This document shows, piece by piece, positions 8,475 through 63,962 of a DNA stretch of 64,000 nt (position 1 is its first letter; each line of letters starts with the position of its first letter). The stretch comes from Nymphaea colorata. Taxonomy: Eukaryota; Streptophyta; Magnoliopsida; Nymphaeales; Nymphaeaceae. The translations under genes and the position numbers were made by a program. Location: assembly GCF_008831285.2 (NCBI RefSeq), contig NC_045138.2:24895934-24959933 (forward strand). Direction: 5' to 3'. Under the pieces are notes generated by a model. The model had not been told where the DNA came from. It saw only the letters and a program-made list of their open reading frames with translations, and made no database searches.

Positions 8475-8775
8475 AAACTAGACGAGGGTATATATTTTGC
8501 ATTAAGCTTTCGAGGATCTCATTCAAGACTTACTTGAACTGCTACTCAACAGAAAATAAGGGCTTCGGTTTCCAGCCATAGGGGTAGAGGAAGGCAAAAG
8601 CGAGATTTTCATCGTTTGTGGATCACTCGGATAAATGCAGTAACCCGCGAGAATGGGGTACCCTATAGTCGATTAATACACTATCTGCGCAAGAAGCAGC
8701 TCCTTCTTAATCGTAAAATACTTGCACAAATAGCTATATCAAATAGGAATTGCCTTTACATGATATGCCTATGAC
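8475..8775 (+). pseudogene. rpl20: Nuclear copy of plastid rpl20 (NUPT), inactivated
   Basis: The frame reads through core motifs of plastid ribosomal protein L20: SFRGSHSRLT, then [30 protein letters not shown], and [20 protein letters not shown]. The N-terminal RRGY segment is present but in another frame. About two dozen bases between it and the FALSFRG region are missing. A TGA stop follows HSRLT where the plastid gene normally has an arginine codon, consistent with C-to-T change. A working copy has about 115-120 residues, so this is a nearly full-length dead insertion. Flanking DNA shows no plastid neighbours (rps12, clpP) that I recognise. Confidence 0.85.
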
Positions 8776-20100: not shown

Positions 20101-20521
20101 TGGGTTGCTTCATCGTCAAATTTGGTTTTTTGGGTATTCGGAGAAGACGCTTGCTGGTTTATTCAATTATGCTTGTCTCATTTTGGTTTTCTTCTGCTCC
20201 AGCAGAAAGCGCGTTGAGGGCCTGGGGCTTTGGGTTTGGATTTTTTTTTTTTTAGAATTTGGGTGGTGTTGAGTGTGGTCGTCGTATTGGGTTCTTTAAT
20301 TTTTTTTTCAATACCTTTTTCTTGTTTCTTTTTCTGGCTTGAGTTCGCTTTAGTCTTGTGAGGTTCATCTGGCCTGCATTGTGGTTTGGAATCTCATATG
20401 GTTATGTTGTGCACTAGATATTGGTTCTTAGTAAAATGGTTCAATTTTTTCCTGTTCTGCGTTAACAACTTATCGTTCTCGTCCTTATTCTTGTTTTCTT
20501 GTTTTATGTTCATTTGGGGAT
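17192..20521. other. Intergenic and probable 5' leader of the SR gene
   Basis: A minus-strand frame at 17408-17596 (MEYHAALMATSSSNG) and a second at about 17270-17390 (MEMFFDTWPFSLPK) look protein-like, but I cannot join or identify them. At 19405-19515 a 60-base motif with GCATGAATTAGAT is imperfectly duplicated. From about 19880 the DNA becomes pyrimidine-rich, with an ATTAGGGTTCTCAGC motif, which suits the transcription start and a spliced 5' untranslated region of the downstream gene. Confidence 0.4.
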
Positions 20522-23500
20522 ATGAAAGTGATGAATTCTGGTTCACCTGATAAAGAGGTCGATGCTTCAATGGGTGTTGCTGAGATTGACGGTGAGATCC
20601 CTGCCGGGGGTAAATGGTCAGCTGCATTAGATCTGAACCTAGCGGCAGGTAAGGACGAAGAGGGCTGTGGCCATGAGAATGATGTTCGGAATGGCCGGAT
20701 GGAGATGGACTTGAATCAGCAGCAATTGCATGGTGAGGCTAATTCGTTGCCTGTGGTGAACGGAAATTATATTCATGAAATGGAAGACGGTGATCAGTTG
20801 GAGAGATCAAATATTCCAGGGGAAGATGGAATCGCTGGAGATTGTATTGGAAGGGACAGGGATATGGAGGCTGTTGATGATTTTGAGAGAAGATGTTGTT
20901 CCTCGCCGACGAAGATTGCATCTTTGCCTACTGAAAAGCTAAACGATGAAATTGATGTTCATGGAAAGCAGAATTCAGGCATTTCAGCTGGAGAAACCGG
21001 AAATGATTTTTATAGTTATGCTGGTAAGTCGAGTGATGAAATTCGAAGTAAGGACCATGATGACGAAGATGGTGATCTTTCAGATGCTGTTTATAAGAAC
21101 CACCCCGTTGACAGGTTAGACAAGGAAGAAAACCAAATGGAATATGTTGCCGGTGATATGCAGAAGTATGAATCCTATAGCTCCAGCAATTTGGACGCAC
21201 AACCTAATACCAAGGACATGCAAGGAAGTTACTCCCACCATTTTCCCCAAGAGCGTGTCTTAGGATCTGTTTCACCGGTTACGGCAACAGCAGACTCCTG
21301 TACACAATCTCCTCACAGATTCCCATCTGCAGGAATGGAACCAAATTCTCATGTATCACCATTATCTGAAAATCAAGAAGTTCCGGTTCCTCAGTGCGAA
21401 ACTCCGCACTCATCATCACTCAAGTGTAGTCCTTCCCGTATGCAATCGCCAAAGGGTCATTCTGAACAGAAAGGAACAACTTCTCATGACAATATTCAGC
21501 AGGAGTTTTCCCCTAGAAAGTCTGCTCGCACAGATAAGGGATCTCGTTCTCCTCGAAGATTTCAGCAGCAAGACTCCCCAAAACAGGAAGATTCCTCTAA
21601 AGGTTGCCAATCTACTTCACCAAAAAGAAGGCACTCTTCACCAGGAAGGCACAAAAGACATGATCGTTCATTATCTAGATCGCCCAGCAGGCGGAGGGAA
21701 CAGAAGGATGCTCCTTCTGGTTCAAGAAGAGACTACCGCTATAGGTCGCGGTCAAGGTCCCCCATGCAAGGGAACATTCCAGGAGATCCCCAAGGTAGGA
21801 CATGCTTGGAAATCTGATGGCGTACCCTGAATATTTTTAGGTTCAATTAAGTGTTTTGATTTGGTTTGTTTGTTTGATTTGTCAGGAGGAGATATTCTCC
21901 AATGAGGAGGTCCCCTCCATCAGCTTATCATTCTCACCGCCGATCTCCAAGGAGGAGACCTTGGTCACCTCCTCCAAATCGGAGTACTGGAGTGGGGAAA
22001 CCTGGGAATAGTTTATTTGTTGCTGGTTTCAGCTTTGCCACCACTGAGAGAGATTTAGAGAGGAAGTTCTCTAGATTTGGCCGAGTGACAGATGTTCGCA
22101 TTGTTCGTGACAGGAGGTATGAACAAATTCTACGAGAATTTCATTTAGTAGCACATGTATGCGTACCTTCGAGATATCAAAGTAATGCAATGCCAAGTTG
22201 TAAATGTGCGTATGATGCATTTTGTATCTGAAAATTGTACATGCTTGCTAAGTAATATGTAATTCTTCCGATGAATAGGCTGGAATTTATATTTGAAAAA
22301 GATTCTTTTCCATGTTTTACATATATAATGAGATCAGTATCAACATAAACACGCATTACATCTGAGTCATTCAAATATGAAAAGGTTATGTCACACACAC
22401 ATTTATTACATACTTAAGAATGTATCGTCCAATAAAGGATGTTGCCGTTGTGCTAGACAGCCAGCCCAAACAACGGTAGCCTGCTATTTGTATGTGTGGC
22501 GGTTGCCTGCTTCTTTTTGTTCTTGTCTCTCACAAAAGGATCAAATTTTACTATTTGACTTTCAAGCTAACCTCTGAACCAATCTGACATAAGGAGTCTA
22601 ATTTTACTTTATTAAAGTTCTAAACTCACATATCAATGAAAAAATTTGGTGACCTTCTCCAGGTTAGGCTGTACTTTCCCTTGTGGCAGTTGGTACATGT
22701 ACTATAACTTATATGGTTGAAAGTTTTTCTTTTTATCAGTATGACATTTACCTATCTGTAGCTGAAAAAAGATTCAAATATTTGTAGTTTGTGGTGTGTA
22801 TGTTTGATCATATAATGTTACGGCTAAAAATACCACCACTGTTCTTGAGGTCTATGTTGCACATAATGATCCTGGTTATCGTGACCAGTTATGTGCTATA
22901 TTTACCTTCTGTCTGTAGACCTTCAAGACGTTGTAATGTTTCTAGGCATCAGGGCAAAAGCAATGATCCGGTAGTCTGATGGCATTTTTGTGGCGGTGAC
23001 ATTGTATGATCAAAGACTAAATTTAATATTGCTTGAGCTTTTGGAGTTGATTGGAAAAAAAAAATATACTCATAGGATTGTGTTTCTTTATGTATTATAA
23101 GTTGTAGCCAGCTTCATGAAAAGGTCAACATGATGGTTAGGAGTCTTAAGACTAAACAAAAGAACTCTCTGAAAATGAATTATTTCGTGGTTGTCATACC
23201 TCTATCTTAATATTATACTTTGATGATTTAGTCTGTACTTTGAAGCCACTATATGCCGAACTGAGCGATTCTGTTTAGTGATTTGACAGGTGGAAGAATG
23301 GAACCTAATCTAAAACTTTAATAACGTCTATTAAGGATGTGTCTAGTTTATGGTTTGTAATGTTGGTGATCAGGCATGTTTTTGTGGTCATGTAACTTGT
23401 TTTATTGTATCATCTAATTGCCTTACTCTTGTTTTATTGTATCATCTAATTGCCTTACTCTTGTTTATCATGTTTTAATCTATTTTAGTATTACATCTAC

Positions 23501-36858: not shown

Positions 36859-38827
36859 TTTGAGGATGTGCAGGTTGCTGGAGTTGTTGGAAATAAGATG
36901 CCTGAGTTGCTTTCCGCTTATCTTTTCCTGAAGATCACAATTGACTCAGTACTACACTCATGGGCAGCTTTGCTTGATGCAATCCAAGACATGGATATCC
37001 TGGTGTTGTTCCATTAGTCAAACATTTTTCATGTTATGGAGATTAAGCTGTGTAATCCTCTCGGTATTGTACATCTGGATCTGAAGCAAGATGTTGCACT
37101 GGCAGTTTCAACGGTGCCTGTATTCAGAACATTCCTTTGTATTCTTTTTTGGCTGTTCGTTTTATTTGAATGGTGTGAATGAGTTTATGTCGTTGTATTC
37201 AACAGTTTGCTCGCTCAAATATTGCTCCGGCAGTTGAGACCTGGATGGCTGGACCAACTTGTGTGATGCTTCAATATTTTTGTTTTTGGATTCCATGAAT
37301 AGCATTTCCACGAACAAGCATTGAAAGCTATAAAGAAATCAATATCGAAGGACTTGGTAGTTTATTATCTGCCATGTTCAGAATGGTCTAGTTCAGCAAT
37401 TCTTGAGCTATCTGTTGCCCTTTTCTATGAAGCAAAGGAAGTTTCTCATGGAAAAATTCTTTCGTGTTGCCATACCTTGAAACAGCTGAAAGAAGAAGCA
37501 CATTTCCCGTAAAATACGTTTGGTCTATGGAATTACTCTGTTCTTTGTGACTTTATATTCGAAGGTGCGTTTTTATTTTTTTCAAAATGCAACAGAAATC
37601 ACCAAATTGTCTTGAACGCCTCGGACTTGAACACCTAGAGGTGCCTGTTTACCATGTCTTCTTCTGAGTGTCTGTCCATGTAGGACCCTTGCTTTATTAC
37701 TCTATAAGAAAGTCTGCCTGAACATCAGGTGCTTGGAAACAACTTTGCTGAATGATGGATCCCTTTGCGGCAGGTGATTTTTCTCAAGGCATTCAACTTG
37801 AATGACATGAAGAATTCAATACCTGCAGCAAGGTTAGAACAGCACAATGGCGTTGTCAATTGTCAGAAGCGGAGATTGAAACGCTCGATGCCAACGCTGA
37901 CAAATCAGTGAACTGTTTATCCATCTTCAAACCATCTCTAAATGTGGCTTCTTTCACTGCCAAGGAAGGTAAATGTGAATGCGGCATGCATATCAGACCT
38001 TCTATAAGCGGTTGGTCGCTGAGGGAGCCATCGATTCTGCAACCAAAACAAAAGAATAACCATGATACTAGTAGTTGATTCGTATGGATCATTAAATGTA
38101 AGAAGCAATTTGGTTCTTAAGGTTTCAATTGTCTTTATGAGCTTCTGTCAGGGCCGTTGATGCTGAAACCTTCGTAAAAATAGATTCACGGTTTTTTTTT
38201 TTGTCTGACAATTTTCGGTATTCACTAGAACTTTCACAAAATTCAGTTTAGAGTTTCTTTTTGTCCTACGCAATTGGCATTTAACATTTGTTTATATTGT
38301 TAGATTTGTGAAAGCATTTCGCTCACGAATTGAAAGACCCAGAGAACAAGATAAGAGTGGGCAGCAAAGAACCAAACCACTTGAATCACAATGATCAGAT
38401 CAACTCACATGTCGACAATTAAAGTTAACATATTAGAATGACGGACGATTAATAATATTCTGACGAGGAAATCGTTACCAGATATTTTACCGGTCCCAAA
38501 TTTTACTGCCCAATGTTATGAGCAAAAAAAAAAAAAGACTAAACAATATTTATCATTTAAAAATTGAGACAACATGATAACTCCTCCTCTAGTCAGGAAA
38601 TTCAGTAGCTCACTCCAAGAGTCCAAGTAAGAAACTTGTGTTCTGTTTGCATGTCATTAAAGGACGTCTGATAAGGAAAACATGATGTTTTTGCAATAGA
38701 TATTTTTAAAATATTATATTTTTCTTTTAAAACCTTTTCAGTGTTTGGTCGTTCAATTTACGCATAATCACAATATATTTCAAAAACAAACATTTCTAAT
38801 CAAATGCTTTGTTTGAGGTCTAAGTGA

Positions 38828-38960
38828 CGTTGTGGCCCCTTCTTTTGTCTACCCTTAATTCCGTTTGTAAAAAGAGTTGGCACCTACGAAATTCGAACTC
38901 ACGACTGTTCAAGAGACAGCCTGACCGTTTCTAAATTGAAGTCGATGAGCCGGGAGAGTG
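38828..38960 (-). mobile_element. Possible tRNA-derived SINE remnant
   Basis: On the minus strand GAGTTCGAATTTC (38888-38900) resembles a pol III B box. It lies about 40 bases downstream of an A-box-like GGCTCATCGACTTC. Plant SINEs have this layout. No poly-A tail or target duplication was found. Confidence 0.3.
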
Positions 38961-39659
38961 GAGACGCGAGTGACGAACCACAAGCTGTGAAGATTGACCA
39001 TCAAAGTCTAAACAGGGAAGAATCAGGTGCTATCCGAGTATTACAAACAAAAGTACGGGGACGTTAATGAAAGATTGATGGTTGCGACTTGCGAAGAGGT
39101 GAAAAGGGAAGACCAAGAAGTCTCTGCATCTCTCGCTGTCTCTGATTCTCTCTCTGTAGGTAAGCACGAGAAGATCCTCCGCCATGGATTAAATCGAGAG
39201 TGGTGTTCTGCAATAATCTACAAGGTGCTCTCTCTCTCTCTCTCTCTCTCGCTCCCCACACCCACCCAATCCCAACCCAACGATCACCTAAGCTGAATCA
39301 TCTTTGAAGTCAACACCAACGTAGACCCTGTGGGTTTCGTTTAAATTAGAGCGGAGAAGCACACCGCAACAGTGTGGGTCCAATTTATGTTGGTCGGTTC
39401 TTTTCTTAGTTTGAATCATGTCCCATTAGACCTCTAAGATCGGCTGGATTTTCGGGAAGCAAATTGAGGAATCAGAAGAGGTAAAACTAGCTTTTCCCCT
39501 TAAGAAATCATAGGGAATTTGATTCTTTCCACGAGGAAAAAAGGAATTATGTTGAGAAGGGGATTTGGATTTCCCCGAATCTAACTAGGCCTACCTGCAT
39601 TGTGGTATTGCAACAGAATGAATGAAAAAATTGAGCAGAATGGAGTCATGTTTAAGCAT

Positions 39660-39677
39660 TTCTAGAAGGTTAACGAG
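39660..39677. promoter_or_regulatory. Heat-shock-element-like sequence
   Basis: TTCTAGAAGGTTAACGAG contains alternating 5-bp units TTC, GAA, TTA, GAG: two perfect and two near-perfect nTTCn/nGAAn modules. It lies about 520 bases upstream of the FAR1-sHSP ATG, inside the inferred leader intron. Such a match can occur by chance. Confidence 0.3.
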
Positions 39678-40184
39678 ATTCTGGGTCACTTGGTTGGGGT
39701 TCTGGGAGATAATTGCTTTTGCTTGGCTAGAAATTTTTAATTTGCACCCGACAGAAAGCGAATATGTTGTTCGTCGAGCATGAATTCTTAGATTTTGATT
39801 TTAGATGTGATTGTGCTTTATGAAGGACGGTTTATGATGCATAATGCTAGAAAAATAGAGAAACAGGACGTGCAAAACAGGTTCCATGTAGCTGTGATGA
39901 GTCTTGGTGGCGATGTCGCTGATGTGCATTTATGTTTGAAGAACAATTTGATGCCATACATACCCGCATGTGCCTAGTTCTACAAGTGAAACCTGAGTTT
40001 ATGGTTTTCCTTATTTACAAAAAGTAGTGATGAACGATATGCTTTAGTGCTGCTATGTTGCTCAATGTATTTACATGCTGTGTCAGTTTTTTGGTTGAAT
40101 GACTTCTAGACGCTTTCCTGCATGCTAACAGCGGAACTATTTCTTCGTTTATGACCTTCTCTAGGTTGTATCTGCAACTCAGGG

Positions 40185-41111
40185 ATGGAGGAGAACTGCT
40201 CCACCGGAAAGTCCATAGGAGCTTGTAACGAAAGTGAACCTGGTAAAAGTACAGTTCGTCATGGTGATGCAGTGGACACCAGTATAACGCCTGAAGTGGG
40301 AATGCAGTTTGAAACACATGAAGCTGCAAGACTGTTTTACGATCAATATGCTAGACATAAAGGGTTCTCTACCAAAATAAAACGCTCGTGGAAGAGGGGA
40401 CGTAGTGATGAGTTGTCTGCAATATTGTATTCATGTTCTAAAGCCGGTAGTAAACATGAGAACAAGAACACTCAATTTGAAAGAGGGACTTCATTGACAG
40501 ATTGCAAAGCAGAAATGAGAGTTAAGAGAATGGACACCATGAAGTGGAAAGTGACCGAAGTTGTACTTGATCACAATCACGAGCTCGTCCCTTCAAGCGT
40601 AGATCTATATAGACCCAACCGGTGCATAAGCTCTGGAGTCAGGAGGAAGTTAAAAAAGAGGCTTGTTTGTCAACCTCTGTCCACCCAGAATCACATGAAC
40701 AACATCCCCAGTGAGATGAATAAACTTTTGGATATTCAACCTATTTCCTATTTACGAGAGGCAGAGGGCACGGTGTGCACACCTGCTGATATCAAGGAGT
40801 TACCTGGTTCGTACATCTACATCATTGACATGCCTGGACTTAAATCAGATGACATCAAGGTGCAGGTTGAGGATAACAATATTCTCAGTGTATGTGGGGA
40901 GAGGAAGAAGAACGAGAGGGAGGATCCAGAAGCCAAATTTATTAGAATCGAGCGGGTGGGGAAGTTCATGAGGAGATTCACACTTCCTGCCAATGCTAAT
41001 GTCGATTCCATCTCAGCCGTTTGTAGAGATGCTGTAGTCACTATAACAGTAGCCAAAATTCCTCCTCCTGAACCTAAAAGACCTAAGGTCATAGAGGTTA
41101 AGGTTGGCTGA
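40185..41111 (+). CDS. FAR1 DNA-binding domain fused to class II small heat shock protein
   Basis: A single 308-codon frame with no intron. Residues about 38-138 are a FAR1-type (WRKY-GCM1 fold, MULE-transposase-derived) DNA-binding domain: [31 protein letters not shown], then zinc ligands Cys84 (YSCSK), Cys107 (DCKAE), His130 and His132 (DHNHEL). A basic linker (RRKLKKR at 153-159) follows. Residues about 177-308 are a cytosolic class II small heat shock protein: a short N-terminal arm ([16 protein letters not shown]), [64 protein letters not shown] and the C-terminal IEV of the I-x-I/V motif. The transposase and SWIM regions of full FAR1/FRS proteins are absent. The ATG follows an acceptor at 40161-40164, the leader-intron pattern common in FRS genes. 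An open frame across both domains suggests selection, but expression is unknown. Confidence 0.9.
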
Positions 41112-43109
41112 AATTTTTCAGTTGTACTGTCTTGTTGTAGGGGTTCTATTTTTTGTGTCTCAACACTTCTTTTTTTCTTTTTCTTTTTTTTTCTTTCTCC
41201 TGGTCCTTAATGTTCTTCTCCTTCTTTGTAATGAAATTTTTAAGAAATGTAAGCTTTCTCCATTACATCTGAATCTTGATTATTATTCTTGAGTTTGATT
41301 CTCAAATATTAGTTTGCACCCTCGTAATGACTGCGATTGAGTTACTCTCTTACGTTACTCCTTTTTAAAAGTCTCCGATAGCCTCTCTCACTTAGCACAG
41401 ACACAAAGGATACGTCGTGGCTTCCAAGTTTATCAGGATGTAACAATAACTACTACTGACACACACCTTAGGTTACCTCATTAAAGAAACTGGAGTGTGA
41501 AGATAAAATTCACAAGCCATGATGAAAATATCGACAAAAATTGTTGAGGTATCAGCCATTTATAGTGATGTGTCAAAATCTCATACGATCCAAAGCAGTT
41601 CTGACATGGATCCTGCCTTTTATAATGAAAGTGTTTTTATTTGGCTTTCTGAATATTGTTCTTTGAGCGCTACACTTATGATTTTGGTACTCCATCTAGC
41701 ACTGTTAATGAACGAATCTTCATTCCTTTTTTTTTAACGTGGTGTTTAATCATCTAACATGAACAGAACAATATGAGGAACAGAGGTTTGCGTGGTACCC
41801 AACAGTACTGAGGTATCACATTTAGTCGTCGTCCACTTTATGCTCCTTTTTTTGGAATACTATTCACATACAAAGTCCTTCCAGTCTTTCTGGTTCTTGT
41901 CTTGAGTCCTCTGGCTTTTGCACTTAGTTCATCTGAACATTGTCAGTGGCATTCTAACTAAGCTATCCTTTATCACACTCCCTAGACTCTGACTCAACCT
42001 CCAAAAAGGTCTCCCAACTGCTCATCTTTGTTAGTGTTATTGATGTTGAGCTCTACTTTGTTTCATTTTTTTTTTCTTGTTCAGATGGATGTAGACATGA
42101 AATTTTCTTTCAGCTTCAGTTGATTCAGTTTTAGTTCTGTTGCAACACGAAAAATGTGGAAATCGTTTAAGTATCTGCACAAAGGTTATGCAAATTGTGG
42201 CTTTCCTAAATTCCAATGGAAATAACTTTCGCTGTTTTTATCTTTGCAGCCTAGAATAGCTTTTTTCTATTTACCTGCACGGTACAATTGCGTATGCACT
42301 AAAATGACGAACTTACAGATGGAGACGAGGTAACCTTTAAGCAAATTAAATGAAAACATGTCTGAAACGTGCAAGATTAGAAGCAAATTCATTCTCACTC
42401 CAGCAACTGCGAAATACTGTGTTGAATGTTGATAACTTGATATTAATTATTAAATTTTTAAAAACTGTGGTACCTTTTTTAAGATATTTCATACTCTGTG
42501 GAGGCAGTTGAAAACGCGGGAGAGCACGTTGAGATTGCCCTTCTTGCTCTGCTTCATAAAAGAAACAGCATGTTGAACAATGTTTACAGTGTCACACCAT
42601 GCCCATCATCATAGTGTGACCCTGTCCATCATCATAATGTTTACAGTCACTCCACGTCCATCAACATTAAGCATTCTTCGAAGAGTAAAAAGCAGCCCAA
42701 AAATGGAAATCTCAAAATTTCAATGGTACTTTCTGATGCAAACAGTTTTCTCTTTTCACTAGACTGGCTGGTGTTGAACAGATCCTTGCTAGTGTACGCG
42801 TCATATTTCTTCTCTTTTAAAAGACCAGCTGATTCTCAGCACTGTTACAAGTACATGCCAAGAGGCTGACGAAAACATGCAAACTATTGCGAGTTCTTTT
42901 AATACAATTTGCTCCTGCAAGGTTGGCGGCTTCGGTGAACAAATCTCTAAAGTTGCCATAAACAAATCAGTTGTATTTTTTAAATAGCAACTCAAACACC
43001 TTCCATGACAACAACCACTCGATAATGCAGAGCCAGTCAGGGGGCAGTTGATGTATTTCTATTGATTATTTCATCAGAACCTTGCTTTTGCTGCAATCAA
43101 GCTAAGATG
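41112..43109. other. 3' region and intergenic DNA
   Basis: The first 150-200 bases are T-rich, with AATGAAAT near 41230 as a possible polyadenylation signal. No gene is seen. A short imperfect repeat of CATCATCATAGTGTGACC / CATCATCATAATGTTTACAG is at about 42600-42650. Confidence 0.45.
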
Positions 43110-44725: not shown

Positions 44726-46648
44726 TCAAGCAAAAAGTTCTTTCCAACACCTATCAATGGCAATTTGCACTCTTTTATGCTTGCAAATGCCCTGTATTAT
44801 CTCCCATGTATGAGCATTTGGAACAAGCACTTTTTGCAACATTATTTCTAGTACTTTACTAGCAGCGATCAACCTTCCTCTATAATATAATTTACAGATT
44901 AGTTCATCCATAAACTTGGAAGCAACATTTAGTGCTTCAACATTCCAGAGACTCCGCAGGAAGGTATTACATGTAACCATGTCTGGGTCGACACCTCTGT
45001 CGATCATTGCATTTAGCAAGTTGATAGCATGGGGTAGTTTGTTTTGTTTGCACAAAGCATTAAACAAGATATTATAAGTAACGACATCCGGTCCACAACC
45101 TTCACATAGCATTTGATTTAGTAGTTTGAGAGCCTCTTCAACCCGACCACCACTGCAAAGGCCATGCATAAGCGTACCATATGCAACAACATCCAGCTTA
45201 ACTCCATCATCAATCATGTATTTCCACACTGTAAGTGCCTCATCTATCTTTCCTTCCCCACAGAGACCATCAATCAGTATGCTGTAACTAACAGCATTAG
45301 GAGAACAACCATTTGCCATCATTTCCTTCCATAAAAGATTTGCTTCCTCGCTGTTCCCAGTCTTAAAACACCCTTGTATTAATGAGCTATATGTCGTAAC
45401 ATTAGGTGGACAACCATTTTCTGTCATCTCCATCAAAACCCCCTTAGCTTCAAACAGTTTACCTTCCCTACAGAGCCCATCAATTAGAGTGCTGTACAGA
45501 ACGACATTTGGATTGCATCCTTGATCCATCATCACCCTCCACAATTTCAATGCTTCTTCTGCATTGCCCTCCTTAAACAATCCACTAACAAGGACTGAGT
45601 ACGTAAATACATTTGGTTGGCATCCCTTCTCCAGCATGAGCGACAAAATATGTAGTGCATCCATAGACCTCCTAATCTTCACAAGACCATTCACTATTGT
45701 GCTATAAGTCACGATATTAGGCACATAGTTGCTTGAAACCATCTTTTGCAACAGGTGAACCGCTTTCTCTATCTTCCCCTGAATGCATAGACCATGGACA
45801 AGTGTATTATAAGTGACCTCATTTGGAACACACCCTTTAAGCAGCATATTTTCAATAAGATTGGATGCCCTGTTCAAATCACCATTTTTGCAAAGACCAT
45901 TGATAAGCACATTATAGTTGACTGATGTAGGAAAGCAACCCTCCACCTGCATTTCATCCAACAATGCAATCGCCTCCTCTATCCTATCCTCTTTGCACAA
46001 TCCATCCATCAATGTACTGTATGTAAATGCATCAGGCTTGCATTTCCTGACAGGCATCTCCCTAAATAACTCGATAGCCAAGTCAGTTGAACCCTTTTTA
46101 CACAAAGCTTTAATAACCAGATTAAAAGTAAGCACATTTGGTGAAAAACCGTTTCTCAAGCACCGGCAATAAAACTGGTATGCCTGCTCGAACAGACCTG
46201 ATTTTACAATGACATTCAGAACTGAGTTGAATGATCGTATGGTTGGTCTGCACTTGTATTTATGATACATTGAATTGAATAAATAGATGGCTTCATTGGG
46301 AAGGTGAGCATGCCCATACGCTCTGAAAACAAGTATGAAGATCTTCTCTGAGAAAACACGATTCTCCTTCTTCATGCGATCAAAAACCTGCCCTAATGAA
46401 ATGAAATCTCCTGAACTCGCATACTTCTCAACAATCAGATAGTAGGAAGAATCCCCTCTTGTGTAAGAGCCCCATCTAGGGGAAGCCTTAAAAATATCAT
46501 ATGCAATTTGACTTTCATGTTCCTCATTCCTTTCAAAGTTTTCTGACAGATGTGATGAGAACCAAGACAGGGAATGCCGGGAAAGGGAGGAACACCAGCG
46601 CTTCAACGCATGAGACAAGCTATTGTTCCTTGTTATCAATATCCACAT
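44726..46648 (-). CDS. EMB1025: Pentatricopeptide repeat protein, EMB1025 orthologue
   Basis: One intronless 640-codon frame, as usual for P-class PPR genes. The N-terminus is rich in Arg/Ser/Leu and poor in acidic residues (MWILITRNNSLSHALKRWCS), consistent with a mitochondrial targeting signal. From about residue 135 to 600 there are roughly 13 tandem 35-residue repeats of the form P-N-V-x-T-Y-N-x-L-I-x-G-L-C-K (e.g. PDAFTYSTLMDGLCKEDR). The C-terminal segment (VTCNTFLRSL, then KVLEIMLQK and AIDRCWKELF) is the diagnostic tail of Arabidopsis At4g20090 (EMB1025), a protein needed for embryogenesis. PPR proteins bind organellar RNA sequence-specifically. No DYW or E domain is present, so an editing deaminase role is unlikely. 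No break is seen. Confidence 0.92.
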   Translation of the reverse strand: MWILITRNNSLSHALKRWCSSLSRHSLSWFSSHLSENFERNEEHESQIAYDIFKASPRWGSYTRGDSSYYLIVEKYASSGDFISLGQVFDRMKKENRVFSEKIFILVFRAYGHAHLPNEAIYLFNSMYHKYKCRPTIRSFNSVLNVIVKSGLFEQAYQFYCRCLRNGFSPNVLTFNLVIKALCKKGSTDLAIELFREMPVRKCKPDAFTYSTLMDGLCKEDRIEEAIALLDEMQVEGCFPTSVNYNVLINGLCKNGDLNRASNLIENMLLKGCVPNEVTYNTLVHGLCIQGKIEKAVHLLQKMVSSNYVPNIVTYSTIVNGLVKIRRSMDALHILSLMLEKGCQPNVFTYSVLVSGLFKEGNAEEALKLWRVMMDQGCNPNVVLYSTLIDGLCREGKLFEAKGVLMEMTENGCPPNVTTYSSLIQGCFKTGNSEEANLLWKEMMANGCSPNAVSYSILIDGLCGEGKIDEALTVWKYMIDDGVKLDVVAYGTLMHGLCSGGRVEEALKLLNQMLCEGCGPDVVTYNILFNALCKQNKLPHAINLLNAMIDRGVDPDMVTCNTFLRSLWNVEALNVASKFMDELICKLYYRGRLIAASKVLEIMLQKVLVPNAHTWEIIQGICKHKRVQIAIDRCWKELFA

Positions 46649-63272: not shown

Positions 63273-63962
63273 CTAATCATGATGCTTGTTGGCCAAGTTG
63301 CATTGCCTTCTGATCTCCCCCTTGCTGCCAGTGAGAGGGTTGTTCTCAGAAAGGATTGTGATTGCCCTTGAGAATTCCTGGAAGAAGTAGTCCTGGCTCT
63401 TCGCCATCTTCTTCACATAGGGCTTGGTCCTCTTGTCATGAGCAAGTTGGTGATCAACGAGCATCAGACCCTTGTTGTCCAGAATGTTTCTGTAATAGTT
63501 GTTGTCTAACTTCATGGGTGTTCCTCTGTCGTTTCTTACATACTGTACAGCCTTCGGGTTTGGAATTTGGTCAGGGCACTTCTTGAGCATGTGAGGGACA
63601 TGGTCTGGGTTCAGCCTTGGATCAACCTCAGGGTAGAGCCTGTCAACCAGTTTCACACAGTGTGTCCTCCCTACACTGTGAGCACCTGCACAAGACAAGA
63701 GATGGAAGATTAGTGGTCATGGAAAATGGGTGAGCTTGTTTCCTTTTTCTCTCTTTGAATTTGGTCTGCTGCTAAGTGTAATGTGTGAAAACGTACCAAG
63801 TAGGGCGACAACCCCAGGGGTGTCGATGCCAATGGCCTGAAACTTCTCAAGCACAGAAGAAATGCTATCATTGTGCTCAGGAAGGTACTCGTCCAACACA
63901 TCGACCCTGCTCTTTCTACCGTCTCTCCTTCCTGTTTTGAGAGGGATGTAAGGTCCACCCAA
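63273..63962 (-). CDS. PRX21: Class III peroxidase, PRX21 orthologue (3' two exons; 5' end off-window)
   Basis: Two exons are visible: 63797-63962 and 63273-63685, joined G|GT in phase 1. The first encodes LGGPYIPLKTGRRDGRKS, YLPEHNDSI and GIDTPGVVALL. The second has AHSVGRTHC, which holds the proximal haem histidine, then LYPEVDPRLNPDHV, LDNNYYRNIL, DYFFQEFSRA and the cysteine in RRQCN that closes a conserved disulphide. These words match Arabidopsis peroxidase 21 (At2g37130) closely. Class III peroxidases are secreted haem enzymes that oxidise phenolics or make reactive oxygen in the cell wall; PRX21-type genes are linked to stress and defence. The N-terminal exons with the signal peptide and distal histidine lie right of the window. 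The visible part is intact. Confidence 0.93.

Follow-up and report, generated by a model that had tools for sequence, protein, structure and literature searches.

A single-copy open reading frame joining a FAR1 DNA-binding domain to a class II small heat shock protein in the water lily Nymphaea colorata

The Locus and Its Surroundings

We analyzed a 64-kb window of Nymphaea colorata, the 64,000 nucleotides at positions 24,895,934–24,959,933 of the forward strand of contig NC_045138.2. At 40185–41111 (+) lies an open reading frame that translates into 308 residues with a single terminal stop and measures 318 codons from stop to stop (table 1). The predicted protein of 34.8 kDa carries a FAR1 domain (Pfam PF03101; residues 51–136; profile positions 2–90 of 90; 77.3 bits; E = 1.5e-21) followed by an HSP20 domain (PF00011; residues 202–306; profile positions 1–102 of 102; 74.4 bits; E = 8.4e-21). 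Translation and domain matches thus confirm the central observation of an earlier, sequence-only reading, in which a 308-codon frame joined a FAR1 domain to a class II small heat shock protein (sHSP).

Only three frames in the whole window reach 300 codons, and 20 mononucleotide shuffles of the window gave longest stop-free runs of 114–206 codons. The codon-usage score of the chimeric frame exceeds those of the other two plus-strand frames in every 40-codon segment inside it, the junction included. Its lead is small at 40305 and 40365, and a minus-strand frame scores above it in two segments (40365 and 40965). Upstream, an intron is predicted in the 5′-UTR: the donor at 39160 is the only consensus donor scoring at least 7 in 39000–41108, and an acceptor-like site ends just before 40165.

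Table 1. Features of the chimeric locus, in window coordinates.
Feature	Position	Strand	Basis
Predicted 5′-UTR intron before start codon	39160..40164	+	Scan for consensus donor and acceptor
Chimeric open reading frame, 308 codons plus stop	40185..41111	+	Translation, codon usage by frame, shuffles
FAR1/FRS-derived half, residues ~1–156	40185..40652	+	Alignment to L013/L014, domain tree
FAR1 DNA-binding domain, residues 51–136, with C84, C107, H130, H132	40335..40592	+	Pfam PF03101, residues checked
Junction zone, codons 150–158, from FAR1 to sHSP homology	40632..40658	+	Ends of genome matches, alignments
Basic cluster RRKLKKR, residues 153–159, nuclear-localization-like	40641..40661	+	Read from sequence
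Class II sHSP half, residues 158–308, K158 (AAG) at initiator Met of relatives	40656..41108	+	Seven-paralog alignment, codon table
Acceptor-like site (exon from 40689), then in-frame ATG M171 (40695)	40689..40697	+	Consensus scan, codon table; weak
Alpha-crystallin (HSP20) domain, residues 202–306	40788..41102	+	Pfam PF00011, AlphaFold2

The left neighbor is a protein kinase gene (Pfam Pkinase), which we read as encoding a calcium-dependent kinase, and the right neighbor is an At4g20090-type PPR gene. The latter (44729–46648, −) is intact, has a single exon, and is ~55% identical to At4g20090-type proteins, its best matches being from eudicots at that level. In a tree, the 12 eudicot rows exclude the PPR protein of the window at 99/95, and its placement toward monocots is weak (84/48, long branches). 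No close ortholog from Nymphaea thermarum or Victoria is among the 120 PPR rows listed.

Other features are scattered through the window. An Rfam match to the plastid rps18 3′-UTR RNA lies at 8670–8726 (−), perhaps extending over ~8480–8730; the adjacent sequence has what we take to be a resemblance to plastid rpl20, and the region is probably an insertion of plastid DNA in the nuclear genome. At 20435–22228 (+), a 460-codon frame that matches nothing in Pfam precedes one with RRM_1, perhaps together a splicing-factor gene. A plant peroxidase exon (Pfam peroxidase) is at 63279–63716 (−). A tRNA B-box-like motif on the minus strand at 38870–38900, in which ARAGORN finds no tRNA, is perhaps a SINE or tRNA relic.

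The FAR1 Half

The FAR1 domain is complete. The C-C-H-H residues of FAR1 domains are zinc ligands; C84, C107, H130, and H132 stand where the sequence-only reading had placed them, and the C, C, and H-x-H columns recur in L013 and L014, its nearest full-length FAR1 relatives in the genome. In a tree of 26 FAR1 rows, the FAR1 half is sister to this pair at 98/96, on a branch of length 1.25, and its identity to the nearest FAR1 genes of the genome is 31–39%. The alignment to L013 and L014 is good from approximately residue 34 to residue 156; residues 1–33 align poorly and are assigned to the FAR1 half by position. In an AlphaFold2 model, whose alignment held no relatives for the FAR1 half, pLDDT is below 50 over residues 88–163, except 164.

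FAR1 proteins were expected to continue into transposase (MULE) and SWIM domains, and this is true of the nearest relatives. L013 and L014, with frames 844 and 764 residues long, share with the chimera the FAR1 domain, the zinc-ligand columns, and the flank to approximately residue 156, but in them the same frame runs on into MULE and SWIM. Pfam finds neither domain in the chimeric protein. Downstream, no remnant of MULE or SWIM was detected at E values up to 1 in 10 of 13 frames of 60 or more codons (41.1–43.5 kb), and the L013 and L014 proteins have no match better than E = 0.5 in the window outside of the FAR1 region. CACGCGC, the FHY3/FAR1 binding motif, occurs nowhere in the 64-kb window. 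Elsewhere in the genome, another FRS gene (L015, C5:17.77 Mb) carries a tandem pair of FAR1 domains within a single frame of 857 residues.

The Class II sHSP Half

The second half is recognizable as a class II sHSP over its whole length. Its best match by sequence among solved structures is a 17.1 kDa class II sHSP (5ds1, E = 9.8e-31), with the best class I match 34 bits lower, and its homologs are also class II. Because homology begins at approximately K158, where relatives carry their initiator Met, the sHSP runs its full length and has lost only the start codon, a refinement of the nearly complete protein first described. I-x-V/I is the characteristic C-terminal motif of sHSPs and is present as I303-E-V305. 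AlphaFold2 models the 10-residue blocks of the alpha-crystallin domain mostly at pLDDT 89–95, with 59–62 over residues 241–260 and 79 at the C-terminus.

Like the cytosolic class II sHSPs of the C11 cluster and Amborella (P0007), this half thus extends from the start position to I-x-V. Unlike them, it lacks a start codon of its own (AAG), the G-V-L motif, which reads A283-V-V285 (G283A, L285V), and the class II signature DAKAMA/DTKAMA, which is replaced by EAEGTV (E192-A-E-G-T196) such that AKAM is lost. In addition, one residue is lost ahead of V258 in the alpha-crystallin domain.

Seven class II paralogs form a tandem cluster at C11:6.99–7.03 Mb, and the sHSP half aligns with them from their start Met onward at 49–58% identity. 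It lacks their charged insertion, and gaps relative to these paralogs keep the frame. Among trimmed homologs, its best match is Amborella P0007 (61% over 148 residues). Because of the missing insertion and the Amborella match, the sHSP half does not resemble a recent duplicate from C11. In a tree, it falls with sHSPs of Nymphaea thermarum and Amborella (95/96), although its branch is long and the bootstrap is not fully settled; the end branch is 1.13 versus 0.15 for Amborella. The genome also has near-identical truncated 5′ copies of a class II sHSP with 134-codon frames (L018 at C8:5.2 Mb and L019 at C3:18.9 Mb). Copies of this type match only query residues 152–236, have a third place at C5:24.23 Mb, and are perhaps a transposon-captured sHSP fragment.

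Junction and Copy Number

Matches from the two parent families converge on a short zone. The two best FAR1 places in the genome end at query residue 157, with weaker ones ending between 134 and 192. On the other side, seven C11 sHSP places begin at query residues 140–162, and the full-length C11 copies at 151–163. Since the frames of L013 and L014 both continue unbroken past approximately residue 156, the junction does not coincide with an exon end shared with these genes. The basic cluster at the junction resembles a nuclear localization signal, with the pattern K/R-K/R-x-K/R found at residue 154.

A search of 407.8 Mb in 783 contigs, with the locus on contig C1, supports the fusion as a single-copy locus. 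Of 76 protein matches, a lower bound for large families, only one spans both domains, and it is the window's own locus. At the DNA level, positions 39900–41400 have eight matches, namely the locus itself and seven C11 sHSP matches at 64–69% identity. As the sequence-only reading held, FAR1 proteins and class II sHSPs are ordinarily separate; both parent families exist as separate genes in this same genome.

Searches for the Same Fusion Elsewhere

No second protein with the same order of domains was found. In a homolog search with the whole protein, 35 of 795 candidates matched at E = 0.001 or better; its reach was proteins of ~169–539 residues, a range that excludes ordinary ~155-residue class II sHSPs and full-length FRS proteins. 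All 35 homologs list HSP20, matching over 26–58% of the query, and within this size range none has PF03101. They include no fusion in either Nymphaea thermarum or Victoria, which is weak evidence as protein coverage of both is uncertain. With residues 36–165 as the query, 68 candidates yielded no match, a result that reflects word sharing more than absence. At least six of the 35 homologs carry another, unrelated domain (P0013, P0017, P0025, P0026, P0027, and P0028), including P0026 with a WRKY downstream of the sHSP. These are weak precedents because their gene models may be merged neighbors. A literature search likewise found no described fusion of FAR1 and class II sHSP, in line with the sequence-only reading, and is weak evidence given that subscription papers were mostly outside of its coverage.

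Selection on the Two Halves

Changes in the sHSP half avoid conserved positions. Compared with the consensus of 29 homologs, it differs at 60 of 145 columns, and 13 of 62 strongly conserved columns are changed (Fisher P = 1.7e-5 vs. variable columns). Among the 29 homologs, only that of the liverwort Riccia approaches this many conserved-column changes (12 of 64). Neutral simulation to the same divergence predicts ~26 such changes, and none of 2,000 runs was as low as the 13 observed. With Amborella as the reference, 14 of 62 conserved columns are changed versus 24.5 expected (P = 0.0005). The changes are also conservative in kind: 26 of 60 have a positive BLOSUM62 score versus 16.7 expected (P = 0.008), and nine of the 13 at conserved columns are mild (D/E, F/Y, R/K, Y/F, M/I, K/R, L/V, V/I, and K/R), the less mild being P185Q, A195G, M196T, and G283A, the last in the GVL motif. 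Neutral drift predicts approximately three stops in this half, which stayed stop-free by chance in 3.8–4.4% of simulations.

The two halves differ in a branch test under a three-taxon codon model with two trios per half. The sequence-only reading had set a dN/dS near 1, together with absence of the fusion from related genomes, as evidence against its interpretation. For the sHSP branch, omega = 1 is rejected (2dlnL of 25.0 and 31.5), although the omega values themselves are unreliable because the length of the query branch ran to its upper bound in the fits. The FAR1 branch gives 2dlnL of 0.95 and 4.61, which does not establish purifying selection there, and the divergence of this half precludes a useful dN/dS. 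By these comparisons, the sHSP half is changing fast but under purifying selection, which may date from before the fusion. Both halves sit on long branches, which would be in keeping with a long history together, although the two trees are not strictly comparable.

These data bear on the possibility that the chimera is recent or decaying, a product of chance rearrangement that is not selected as a fusion and whose frame is open by luck or for want of time. The distance of both halves from their relatives (31–39% for FAR1, and 49–58% and 61% for the sHSP against C11 and Amborella), the changes at residues invariant in aligned class II sHSPs (G283A, L285V, and A195G), the indecisive statistics of the FAR1 branch, and the lack of the fusion in the 35 homologs are all consistent with it. 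We nevertheless regard a recent or decaying chimera as rather unlikely, given that changes in the sHSP half are conservative and avoid conserved columns, omega = 1 is rejected there, gaps relative to paralogs preserve the frame, and 308 codons have stayed free of stops despite strong divergence.

Heat Control and Use of the Locus

A link to heat, proposed in the sequence-only reading, is not supported. There is no three-unit heat shock element in 38–42 kb, and two-unit matches number four there versus 55 in the 64-kb window. FAR1 coding sequence occupies the place of the upstream region of the sHSP, and this FAR1 exon has neither a two-unit nor a three-unit match. The proposed chaperone function is likewise doubtful. 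Chaperone activity is uncertain because G-V-L reads A-V-V (G283A, L285V), and the AKAM signature is lost.

The locus could instead yield two products, the FAR1 exon and the sHSP being used apart, with M171 as the start of translation for an sHSP whose transcript starts or splices in close to 40689. The in-frame ATG at 40695 has ahead of it an acceptor-like site, at 40689, that could be fed by the donor at 39160, a TATA-like hexamer at 40606 is the sole one of its pattern in 38000–41200, and selection is clear on the sHSP half only. However, the acceptor may be a chance match because five sites of equal or higher score occur in 1.8 kb. In addition, the native start codon of the sHSP is gone while its N-terminal arm ahead of M171 is still recognizable, the FAR1 exon has no heat shock match of two or three units, and the junction is in frame. 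We consider separate use of the two parts improbable.

Route of Fusion

The sequence-only reading proposed that a domesticated transposase DNA-binding domain had captured an sHSP. Capture is not separable from other routes of fusion: there are no repeats resembling terminal inverted repeats in 36–46 kb or target-site duplications around the junction, and no poly-A after the stop. Retroposition was considered and rejected; a poly-A tract is absent after the stop, and no flanking repeat is above chance. The simplest reading would be a deletion or recombination that placed the coding region of an sHSP behind a truncated FRS gene.

Pack-MULEs carry gene pieces, and a Pack-MULE or another transposon could have brought the two parts together, leaving a transposon-borne chimeric fragment. 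The derivation of FAR1 domains from MULE transposases, as stated in one paper (PMC13306707), is in keeping with such an origin. Yet no notable inverted repeats were found in 36–46 kb, none exceeding 28 bases at 71% (a scan that may overlook degenerate ends), and target-site-like repeats around the junction are not above chance (longest of eight bases). The locus is also single copy, no transposase remnant was found in the window, and we view transport by a transposon as very improbable. The sequence-only reading also raised a join of two genes by assembly error, which is least credible of all since the window has no N, the contig around the locus is 44 Mb long, the two parts meet in frame at the start of the sHSP, and the published assembly, if the same, is described as PacBio with a contig N50 of 2.1 Mb (PMC7015852).

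Comparison with Known Proteins and a Proposed Mechanism

Two known systems resemble the chimera in part. FRF (FRS-related factor) proteins are subgroup 6 of the FHY3/FAR1 family and have a FAR1 domain only; two papers present the proposal that they compete for the DNA sites of FRS proteins (PMC6000157, PMC13306707). Like them, the chimera has an N-terminal FAR1 domain without MULE and SWIM, but FRF proteins have no other domain, whereas the chimera adds HSP20 and groups with the full-length L013 and L014. The second system is Arabidopsis ARID2/3/4 of the PEAT complexes, "TF group" ACD proteins that combine a DNA-binding and an alpha-crystallin domain (ACD), as described in two papers (PMC12071340, PMC4814718). 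Their alpha-crystallin domain is said to putatively serve homo-oligomerization (PMC12071340). The chimera shares with these ARID-ACD proteins a DNA-binding domain, a C-terminal alpha-crystallin domain, and putative self-association. It differs in that their DNA-binding domain is an ARID, which has no Pfam match in the chimeric protein at E values up to 1, rather than FAR1, and in that its second half is a recognizable class II sHSP. The general architecture of a DNA-binding domain with an alpha-crystallin domain is therefore already known; for a FAR1 domain paired with a class II sHSP, we found no earlier description.

We suggest, with a probability of roughly one-half, that the locus is a genuine chimeric protein-coding gene whose product is an FRF-like, truncated FAR1 protein with a self-assembling alpha-crystallin tail, parallel to the ARID-ACD proteins. 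The functional part of this reading rests on the open frame, the retained domains, and constraint on one half. The gene would combine an FRS-type FAR1 domain, stripped of MULE and SWIM, with a complete class II sHSP coding region joined in frame in their place. Its transcription would depend on sequence upstream of the FAR1 half, with the predicted 5′-UTR intron, and not on heat. The protein would enter the nucleus and bind FAR1-type sites by its zinc-binding domain, in the manner proposed for FRF proteins. The alpha-crystallin tail would act mainly as a module for self-association and make the DNA-bound form multivalent, and in this form the chimera could compete with full-length FRS proteins. 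The classical role of a heat-induced chaperone would probably be diminished or lost.

An FRF-like protein with a self-association tail is favored because the alpha-crystallin domain still models with confidence, the basic cluster RRKLKKR is present, there is no heat shock trimer, and a 5′-UTR intron is predicted. Counted against it, the change of GVL to AVV and the residue lost before V258 may weaken assembly.

A stronger version is that the gene is an old, selected regulator of water lilies, in which a class II sHSP was converted into the oligomerization domain of a DNA-bound FAR1 protein; we hold this tentatively, as a possibility short of even odds. If true, the architecture of a DNA-binding domain with an alpha-crystallin domain that is found in the ARID-ACD chromatin proteins would have arisen a second time, independently. 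The protein would then possibly be a DNA-tethered holdase, with chaperone-like assembly at FAR1 target promoters.

Without conservation, the gene would illustrate a chimera restricted to one lineage. With both expression and conservation, a stress chaperone would have become a structural component of a transcription regulator of transposase origin in a flowering plant from an early-diverging lineage, and the locus would offer a clean case for the nuclear re-use of sHSP self-assembly and for FRS genes turning into truncated modulators.
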